The translations under genes were made by a program, and so were the position numbers. A DNA stretch of 64,000 bases from Bacteroidota bacterium (GTDB lineage: Bacteria > Bacteroidota > Bacteroidia > Chitinophagales > BACL12), in the NCBI GenBank assembly GCA_016124275.1, contig WGOA01000006.1, forward strand, positions 16,194 to 80,193, written 5' to 3'. Positions 58,091 through 64,000 of this stretch are shown here, in pieces; position 1 is the first letter of the stretch; each line of letters starts with the position of its first letter. A model generated the notes under the pieces. That model worked only from the letters and a program-made list of their open reading frames with translations, made no database searches and was not told the DNA's origin.

Positions 58091-58235
58091 GTCAACATCC
58101 GTTCGTCCCTTTTACCTCCGAAAGGTAGCTAAATCAGGGGAAGGGGTGAATACAAGGTGCGCAGGATGGAAACTTTTGCACATTTCGTTCTTCGCTGACC
58201 CTATTTCTGATAAGCAGCATACCCACCGAATAGCT

Positions 58236-58257
58236 TCACAAGAAACTTTTCTTGTGA
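58236..58257. promoter_or_regulatory. Perfect palindrome at the KilA-N gene start (candidate operator)
   Basis: TCACAAGAAA-CT-TTTCTTGTGA overlapping in-frame GTG at 58254. Confidence 0.55.
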
Positions 58258-59084
58258 GAACAGTACAAGTCATTAATATTGATAGTAAGAATATTAATAT
58301 AATTAAGGAAAATGAGGAAGACTATATCTGCCTCACCGACATGATTTCGGGGCCAGATGGTGCTGACTGCATACGCAACTGGATGCGCAATAGAAACACT
58401 GTAGAGTTTATCGGCTTGTGGGAAACCATACACAACCCCGATTTTAAAGGTGTCGAATTCGACACCTTTAGGCGACTTTCTGGGCTAAACAGTTTTAGCA
58501 TGACTCCGCGAAAATGGGTATCTGCTACGGGTGCAATTGGGATTCTCTCCAAAGCAGGTCGACATGGCGGAACTTATGCTCATCGAGACATAGCATTTGA
58601 GTTTGGGGGCTGGATAAGTCCAATGTTCAAATTGCTGTTAATTAAAGAGTTTCAAAGACTTAAACAGATTGAAAACAATCAACTTAATCTAGAATGGAAC
58701 GTCAAAAGAATTCTTACAAAAACAAATTATCACTTTCATACCGATGCAATAAAACAACACATTATTCCAAAAAAAGATTATCAAAGCAATACCAAGTGGC
58801 TCGTATACTCTGAAGAAGCTGACCTTCTGAACGTTGCAGTTTTTGGTTCAACGGCAAAAGATTGGCGCGATGCAAACAAAAAGCTAGCCAAGGATGGTCT
58901 TAACATACGTGACTTCGCAAGTGTCAACGAACTAGTTGTTCTCTCAAATATGGAAAATATAAACTCTGTATTTATAAGTCAAGATATTGAAAAATCAATC
59001 CGACTCAACAACCTTATCAAATTGGCTAAATACCAACTCAATGCTTTAGCCGGGAAGGATTTATTCAAATCACTAAAGAAGTAA
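58254..59084 (+). CDS. KilA-N domain-containing protein
   Basis: EDYICLTDMISGPDGADCIRNWMRNRNTVEFIGLWETIHNPDFKGVEFDTF...; FSMTPRKWVSATGAIGILSKAGRHGGTYAHRDIAFEFGGWISPMFKL. Confidence 0.85.
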   Translation: MRTVQVINIDSKNINIIKENEEDYICLTDMISGPDGADCIRNWMRNRNTVEFIGLWETIHNPDFKGVEFDTFRRLSGLNSFSMTPRKWVSATGAIGILSKAGRHGGTYAHRDIAFEFGGWISPMFKLLLIKEFQRLKQIENNQLNLEWNVKRILTKTNYHFHTDAIKQHIIPKKDYQSNTKWLVYSEEADLLNVAVFGSTAKDWRDANKKLAKDGLNIRDFASVNELVVLSNMENINSVFISQDIEKSIRLNNLIKLAKYQLNALAGKDLFKSLKK

Positions 59085-62912: not shown

Positions 62913-62940
62913 ATAAACGAAATTAGTAGGTTTCGTTTAT
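62913..62940. repeat. Perfect 10-bp inverted repeat
   Basis: ATAAACGAAA ttagtagg TTTCGTTTAT. Confidence 0.8.
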
Positions 62941-63024
62941 CGGGGTTTAGGGCCATATAAAGGAAATAATTTCGCGAACGTAACTGTTATGCACAATATT
63001 AGAAAACCGACAAACAACAATAAA

Positions 63025-63852
63025 ATGAGAAATAAAATTTTGACACTTGCAGTAATTACGACAATGTCTTTAGGGTGCAATGAACAAAAAAAGAATGAAG
63101 ACAAAGAACAACTAACAGCCAAACAACAGGCAAGTATTGCTGACAGTTTAGCCAGTTGCAGTCCAAATACAACCCTCTCCAATTCAACAAGCTACCAACT
63201 TTACAAGGACGAAATAACTTCATTAACTAAGAATGTTAAAAAGCTCGACCCAAACTTACCAACTATTGGAATATTAATGTATGACAAGGTTCTAATGACT
63301 GAATTAACAGCTCCTATGGACGTTTTTGCTAAACACTCAGAAGACGGAAAACAATTATTTAATGTGATTACCATTGCAGAAAACTATGATTTATTTATAA
63401 GTGAAGAAGGATTGAAAATGTTCCCTGATTACACTTTTTCTAACGCACCTAAACTTGATATTATAATTGTACCAAGTGCATACGATATGGCTGGACAAGT
63501 AAAAAATCAAAAATTGATTGCGTTTATTAGAATGCAAAATGAGAACACGGACTTTACAGTAAGTAATTGCGGTGGTGCTTCGTTGATTGGTGAAACGGGA
63601 ATTGCTGACGGTAAGAAAATTGTTACTTGGATTGGCGGTGGAATAGAATTGCAAAAGTCTTATCCAAACTTAAAAGTTCAAGACGACTCAAAAATCAGTT
63701 TTGTTGAAGATGGAAAGTTTATGTCTTCAAACGGTAATTTAGCTTCTTATATTTCTTCATTGGAATTATTAGAGAAACTTACAAGTAAGAAACATAGAAA
63801 ATTTGTTGAATCATACTTGTATTTGGACAGACTTCAACAATGGAAAAAATAA
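63025..63852 (+). CDS. DJ-1/PfpI family lipoprotein
   Basis: Lipobox MSLGC; IGILMYDKVLMTELTAPMDVFA; VSNCGGASLIGETGIADGKKIVTW nucleophile elbow; ORF can extend to ATG at 62989. Confidence 0.85.
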   Translation: MRNKILTLAVITTMSLGCNEQKKNEDKEQLTAKQQASIADSLASCSPNTTLSNSTSYQLYKDEITSLTKNVKKLDPNLPTIGILMYDKVLMTELTAPMDVFAKHSEDGKQLFNVITIAENYDLFISEEGLKMFPDYTFSNAPKLDIIIVPSAYDMAGQVKNQKLIAFIRMQNENTDFTVSNCGGASLIGETGIADGKKIVTWIGGGIELQKSYPNLKVQDDSKISFVEDGKFMSSNGNLASYISSLELLEKLTSKKHRKFVESYLYLDRLQQWKK

Positions 63853-63859
63853 ATACTGT

Positions 63860-63917
63860 GCATAACACCCAAGGCTTAAACGCATGCGCAGGCGTGCGAT
63901 TTAAGCCCCTGTTGAAC
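63860..63917 (+). other. Candidate attC recombination site (58 bp)
   Basis: GCATAAC - accc aa - GGCTTAAACGCATGCG ca gg CGTGCGATTTAAGCC - cct - GTTGAAC (fits GTTRRRY), with one bulged A in the stem. Confidence 0.5.
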
Positions 63918-64000
63918 GAACCGGGTCAGCTCAAGGCAAGAATGATGGTTTCCTATGGATTTTGGAACACGAAGCTTAGCGTAACAGTTTCTATGCTTCG

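Follow-up and report, generated by a model that had tools for sequence, protein, structure and literature searches.

A probable one-gene cassette in a Bacteroidota genome points to an integron-like gene-capture system of Bacteroidia

Introduction

A gene for a DJ-1/PfpI-domain lipoprotein in a Bacteroidota genome lies between two ends that are complementary to each other, and the second end is followed by a hairpin and a GTTRRRY core. This locus raises the question of whether the unit is a gene cassette and, if so, to which capture system it belongs. Earlier integron surveys chose the integrases by the IntI-specific domain (PMC2426708; PMC9668308), and IntegronFinder 2.0 reported one complete integron in Bacteroidetes proper (PMC9024848). 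Here we analysed a stretch of 64,000 nucleotides that carries the unit (the window), its host genome and a sample of Bacteroidia genomes. Positions 62986-63910 are very probably a cassette with a single gene, from an integron-like system by which Bacteroidia capture genes.

Results

The unit has matched ends and a short attC site

All features of the unit described here are on the + strand. Its 5′ end, GTTATGCACAATATT (62986-63000), consists of the core GTTATGC (62986-62992) and an extension, and it pairs with the unit's own 3′ end, i.e., with the R″-side arm AATACTGTGCATAAC (63852-63866), which has GCATAAC at its end (63860-63866). The original prediction had placed complementary ends at 62986 and 63866; these coordinates hold, with 14/15 complementary positions, and a repeat search returned the end pair as 16 nt with 94% complementarity. 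The stem-loop and the GTTGAAC core that were expected after GCATAAC are present as well: the attC stem-loop extends over 63873-63907 (GGCTTAAACGCATGCG, 63873-63888; loop CAGG; CGTGCGATTTAAGCC, 63893-63907), and the right-hand core (63911-63917) opens the next unit or the host site. The whole attC, from 63860 to 63917, measures 58 nt, compared with the 125-141 nt usual in Bacteroidia arrays. When the re-circularised site (R″-stem-own R′) was folded as ssDNA, it reached -22.9 kcal/mol, whereas shuffled sequences averaged -8.6 (z -6.9), and none of 200 shuffles equalled it. The gene had also been described as AT-richer than its neighbours, and the GC of the unit (0.329) is indeed below that of all 316 stretches of 881 nt sampled from the window. 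Elsewhere in the window, a lone AT-rich KilA-N domain gene (58146-59084, 0.387 GC) sits amid GC-rich genes and might be a second import.

A cassette finder based on self-complementary ends, a stem and GTT returned this unit alone in the 64-kb window. With a stricter setting (minmatch 12, stem 10/12), under which the short stem of the window falls just below the limit (9/12), the finder gave one match in 2.85 Mb of strand-bases taken from the host genome as a control and none in 632 kb of shuffles. The open reading frame that continues past the site had been put forward as a possible next cassette. This part of the prediction was not upheld: no credible gene is present there, because the window and contig C66 stop together within a repeat, and in the copy of this repeat on contig C85 the frame closes soon.

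To the left of the cassette, the sequence TATAAAGGAAAT (62956-62967) has an exact copy on contig C18, between a recombinase gene and its first cassette. In 3.1 Mb of strand-bases of the host genome it was found at these two sites only, each just left of a cassette, and it is a possible remnant of an attI-like site. A hairpin, ATAAACGAAA/TTTCGTTTAT, lies further upstream at 62913-62940, and a looser AAACGAA/TTCGTTT pair precedes the C85 cassette (L014 2170-2235).

The cassette gene has a homolog in another cassette array

The gene (63025-63852; Pfam PF01965, E 2e-10), whose stop codon TAA is at 63850-63852, lies in a frame that is open from 62989, and its start codon is probably the ATG at 63025 (MRNKILTLAVITTMSLGC, with a lipobox), as the alignments of most homologs begin at about residue 11-13 or beyond. 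Stress-related hydrolases and amidases are among the DJ-1/PfpI proteins. Homologs were found at 57 loci, nearly all in Bacteroidota, with 52-79% identity, and most of them are ordinary chromosomal genes outside cassettes. The expectation that the gene should recur elsewhere with cassette ends was borne out by a Cytophagales MAG (L061), in which a 65%-identical homolog lies within a cassette (1890-2709) of an array of at least six attC sites. Around the 57 homologs, no convincing cassette ends were found other than those of L061; at two loci (L019 and L035) attC matches lie near the homolog, and do not flank it as boundaries. A phage or plasmid source of the gene was considered and rejected: no phage match was obtained, and the plasmid homologs remained below 60%.

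The same hairpin closes other units in the host genome

Further cassettes had been sought, and a scan of about half of the host genome located them on C85, C46 (two in succession), C18 (two complete ones and one more) and C50 (one). On C85 and on C46 another gene precedes the same hairpin, and each unit has an R″ complementary to the beginning of that unit (GTTAGCGGTAATATT/AATACTACCGCTAAC on C85 and GTTAGCTGTAATGGC/GCCACTACAGCTAAC on C46). Both genes are AT-rich and unlike the gene of the window, and the anatomy is alike. The C46 unit is the second of two consecutive cassettes, and an ordinary long attC directly precedes it. The possibility that a chance inverted repeat surrounds an ordinary gene with a terminator hairpin has in its favour that hairpins past stop codons are common, but it is already contradicted by the three units of one genome that share this anatomy with different matched ends, by the control rate of the finder and by the L061 homolog, and its probability is negligible.

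The hairpin and the downstream sequence, Y, form a repeat (63863-64000, + strand) that also closes contigs C46 and C85, with 98-99% identity; the end of the window, which is the end of C66, lies inside it. An identical short attC, followed by the same DNA for at least 138 bp, is present in three otherwise differing units. Such sharing is not required of a cassette that moves on its own, and this counts against the cassette reading. The near-identity of this DNA at three contig ends, where the contigs break, could instead indicate that the gene is a passenger of another element (an IS, a transposon or a group II intron), with the hairpin and Y as the end of the element and the paired ends as its inverted termini. 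However, the ends vary between units and yet pair within each, which fits cassettes rather than transposon termini; the left flanks of the units share short motifs at most; Y has no match in relatives, IMG/VR or plasmids, and no Rfam family was matched; and the C46 unit directly follows an ordinary long attC. We therefore consider the passenger reading unlikely. A group II intron in Y, which its GTGCG start had suggested, found no support.

A further proposal concerns Y only and is compatible with the cassette reading: the three cassettes might lie upstream of rRNA operons, with Y as the leader, and homogenisation between the copies would then have made the hairpins identical. In the C85 copy (L014 3566-3854), Y holds TTGTTCTTTGACAT, which resembles the boxA-like motifs GTTCTTTGAAGT/GTTCTTTGACAT found beside rRNA genes in relatives, and the genome bin of the host has no 16S gene, as would be expected if the operons had failed to assemble; together these observations give a hint of rRNA operons. 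The motif is short, though, and was found by seeking it, and no rRNA gene was seen on C66, C46 or C85, so that we regard this proposal as tentative, with the odds somewhat against it.

On C18 the order is a recombinase gene, about 230 nt, GTTATGGCC, a MntA/HepT-like pair, an attC, a RelE-like pair, an attC and a third cassette with a restriction-like gene that reaches the contig end; the RelE-like and restriction-like labels come from reading of the sequence and not from a family search. The dispersed cassette of C50 has an attC of the C18 type. The cargo seen in this analysis includes the DJ-1 lipoprotein, MntA/HepT, RelE-like proteins and a hydrolase with an AraC regulator. The attC of the window resembles that of the C18 array in its 5′ arm (GGCTTAAACGCA versus GGTTTAAACGCA), a likeness equalled by 2 of 2000 shuffles, and the similarity of the 3′ arm alone to the C18 type was not significant.

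A recombinase related to IntI adjoins cassette arrays

An intI gene had been looked for to support the prediction, and this was answered in part: a recombinase does adjoin the C18 array, but it is not an IntI as currently defined. No recombinase match was obtained by profile search on the 80-kb contig of the window itself (C66). The C18 protein (L015 2849-4282) is a tyrosine recombinase of 477 aa that is related to IntI. Against NCBIfam, its best match was the XerA/integron integrase model, followed by TIGR02249, XerD and XerC, all below the cut-off. Positions 179-238 of the TIGR02249 profile remained unmatched, i.e., the IntI-specific region is absent: it measures 62 residues in VchIntIA (183-244) versus 20 in the C18 recombinase, whose predicted structure has only a short linker at 382-398. 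The protein also carries an extra N-terminal domain (residues 48-137), modelled as β strands and helices, with no Pfam match.

Catalytic residues are kept in 15 homologs, and L145 alone is substituted, at the first arginine. Among homologs across Bacteroidia, 15 loci have sequence that continues for over 1 kb past the gene, and at 14 of these, cassettes with matched ends follow 3′ of the gene on the same strand, the first of them usually beginning 50-140 nt past the end of the recombinase match. In the array check, which covered the top 20 homologs, 39 cassettes were found in 126 kb of downstream DNA, compared with none in 632 kb of shuffles and one in 2.85 Mb of control strands. Several of the array loci come from one-contig genomes (L177, L179 and L180). 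A recombinase count of 274/296 takes in XerC/D-like matches and is not the size of the family. Palindromic motifs are present between the recombinase and the first cassette at family loci, and TATA lies exactly at -9 before GTTR at 11/13 attI-like first-cassette junctions and also at C85; it is absent from C18 and from the left junction of the window cassette. The motif TTCGTTTATA-GTTAG was rejected as a class-wide attI motif, because its occurrence (9/198 genomes) was not above that of a reversed control. A group II intron reverse transcriptase within a Chryseobacterium plasmid cassette array (L233 14594-15910) recalls the group IIC introns that target attC.

In a tree with few outgroups and one long branch, the C18 family formed one group (90/87) with the recombinases of rAID (recombinase-associated acquired interbacterial defence) arrays, with TnpF from beside tet(X) and with the recombinase that precedes blaVEB-3; this group was sister to three IntI (100/99), and IntI and the family together (99/96) stood apart from XerA and from two Bacteroidota Xer-like proteins. 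The cassette might still derive from a canonical IntI integron, either as a CALIN whose IntI has since been lost or as an import. The anatomy is that of the textbook, and the GCATAAC/GTTATGC core is also found in Vibrio repeats. Against this, no IntI over the family cut-off is present in the host genome, and one such protein was found among 395 Bacteroidia genomes (TIGR02249; G022:C40:3592-4530, L226), which keeps the IntI-specific region; moreover, the host encodes a recombinase other than IntI, next to an array on C18, and the 5′ attC arm of the window resembles that of this array. A canonical source is thus very unlikely.

Bacteroidia attC sites share a covarying fold

When 22 Bacteroidia attC sites were aligned, all 17 stem pairs showed two-sided changes, and 91.4% of the stem cells were paired, versus 55.2% after shuffling and 31-42% after sliding; the attC of the window folds, but stands outside this alignment. 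Changes of the G-U type are rare in the stems, which would fit a fold of DNA and not of RNA. A covariance model built from sites of 137-141 nt did not match the 58-nt site of the window, so that the confirmation expected from such a model was not obtained for this site. The model matched in 278/395 Bacteroidia genomes and, in some 1.3 Mb of DNA that came mostly from the host genome, gave no match up to E 1 beyond recognised cassette loci. Of 150 genomes in which the recombinase matched strongly (E ≤ 1e-40), 140 had the attC, versus 76/143 others (Fisher p 9e-16, from hand-copied genome lists and with kinship ignored).

Recombinases of the family adjoin mobile resistance genes and rAID-like arrays

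Family recombinases are located directly upstream of tet(X3) (L230 3989-6170), tet(X5) (L231 3989-6010) and blaVEB-3 (L232 5133-6754) on Acinetobacter and Klebsiella plasmids. The tet(X3) gene lies after an attI-like GTTATGTGCC junction and before a truncated left arm of a Bacteroidia attC, and blaVEB-3 begins at GTTAGCGGTAAT, after another recombinase of the family, with the GTTA junction still visible. On Bacteroides ovatus and Parabacteroides plasmids (L234 5719-12792; L247 2716-6810), a family recombinase is followed by rAID-like arrays of immunity-like genes with short intergenic hairpins. The rAID-like recombinase of B. ovatus shares 42% identity with that of C18, and the tree places both in one group.

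Discussion

The reading of the unit as integron-cassette-like is supported, though the system differs from a canonical integron. By analogy with integrons, the best-supported mechanism for the cassette is that it would travel as a circle, of which one attC strand would fold, the cassette's own 5′ end pairing with R″ around an imperfect stem on the inside; a C18-type tyrosine recombinase would then cut and join at G^TT in R′, and the cassette would be inserted behind an attI-like site, whose consensus is TATA at -9 followed by GTTR, or behind another attC. What the data show is the anatomy, several independent cassettes with matched ends in the host genome, a class-wide linkage of the recombinase family to such arrays, compensatory changes in the attC stem and the occurrence of the gene as a cassette in another genome; the circle, the strand used, the action of the C18 recombinase on the window site and any function of the DJ-1 lipoprotein are inferences.

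More widely, it is likely that the cassette belongs to a class-wide integron system of Bacteroidia, sister to the IntI integrons, whose recombinase never had or has lost the IntI-specific insertion. The rAID arrays of Bacteroidales would be one of its specialised lineages; the genes tet(X) and blaVEB-3 would have reached Gram-negative plasmids as cassettes of the system, with the recombinase (annotated 'xerD' or 'TnpF') still attached. About 70% of the sampled Bacteroidia genomes have one covarying attC family, linked to a non-IntI recombinase, and, going by the open-access literature, this system appears to have been overlooked by integron surveys. If true, the proposal adds a very common gene-capture system, provides a sister group for asking how IntI acquired its attC-binding insertion, unites rAID arrays and integrons, and offers a testable answer to the question left by a 2020 paper, which described xerD beside tet(X), found no integron there and asked whether XerD mobilises tet(X) (PMC7473080).

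Like integrons, the system described here has cassettes of one gene or one operon that all point the same way and are delimited by attC sites, the 5′ end of each cassette being complementary to its own R″. It also shares with them the GTTRRRY core, a covarying attC hairpin that is conserved in fold over sequence, a tyrosine recombinase flanking the array on one side, and a cargo of toxin-antitoxin and defence genes; the TATA-bearing junctions are a possible counterpart of attI. It departs from the integron definition in its integrase, which lacks the IntI-specific additional domain and, on C18, has an extra N-terminal region; in addition, the recombinase gene is upstream of the array and reads towards it, instead of being divergent, and the attC has another consensus and about 138 nt. 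The lone cassettes away from a recombinase (window, C50 and C85) recall the dispersed cassettes of CALIN and attG, but here the same genome also encodes a family recombinase, and attI-like features are seen at the left junctions of the window and C85 cassettes. The 'xerD'/'TnpF' genes by plasmid tet(X) and blaVEB-3 are likewise family members directly upstream and co-oriented, whereas in these modules the recombinase and the attC are truncated and lie amid IS91-like, ISCR1 and IS26 elements. Finally, rAID loci are known from Bacteroidales; a paper that does not mention integrons (PMC12247911) describes them as arrays of low-GC genes that come after a tyrosine recombinase, in its orientation, and have conserved motifs between them. 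They share with C18 and the family loci a related recombinase, co-oriented low-GC genes and intergenic motifs, and differ in being defined by orphan T6SS immunity genes, whereas the cargo of the system described here is general and its attC is longer.
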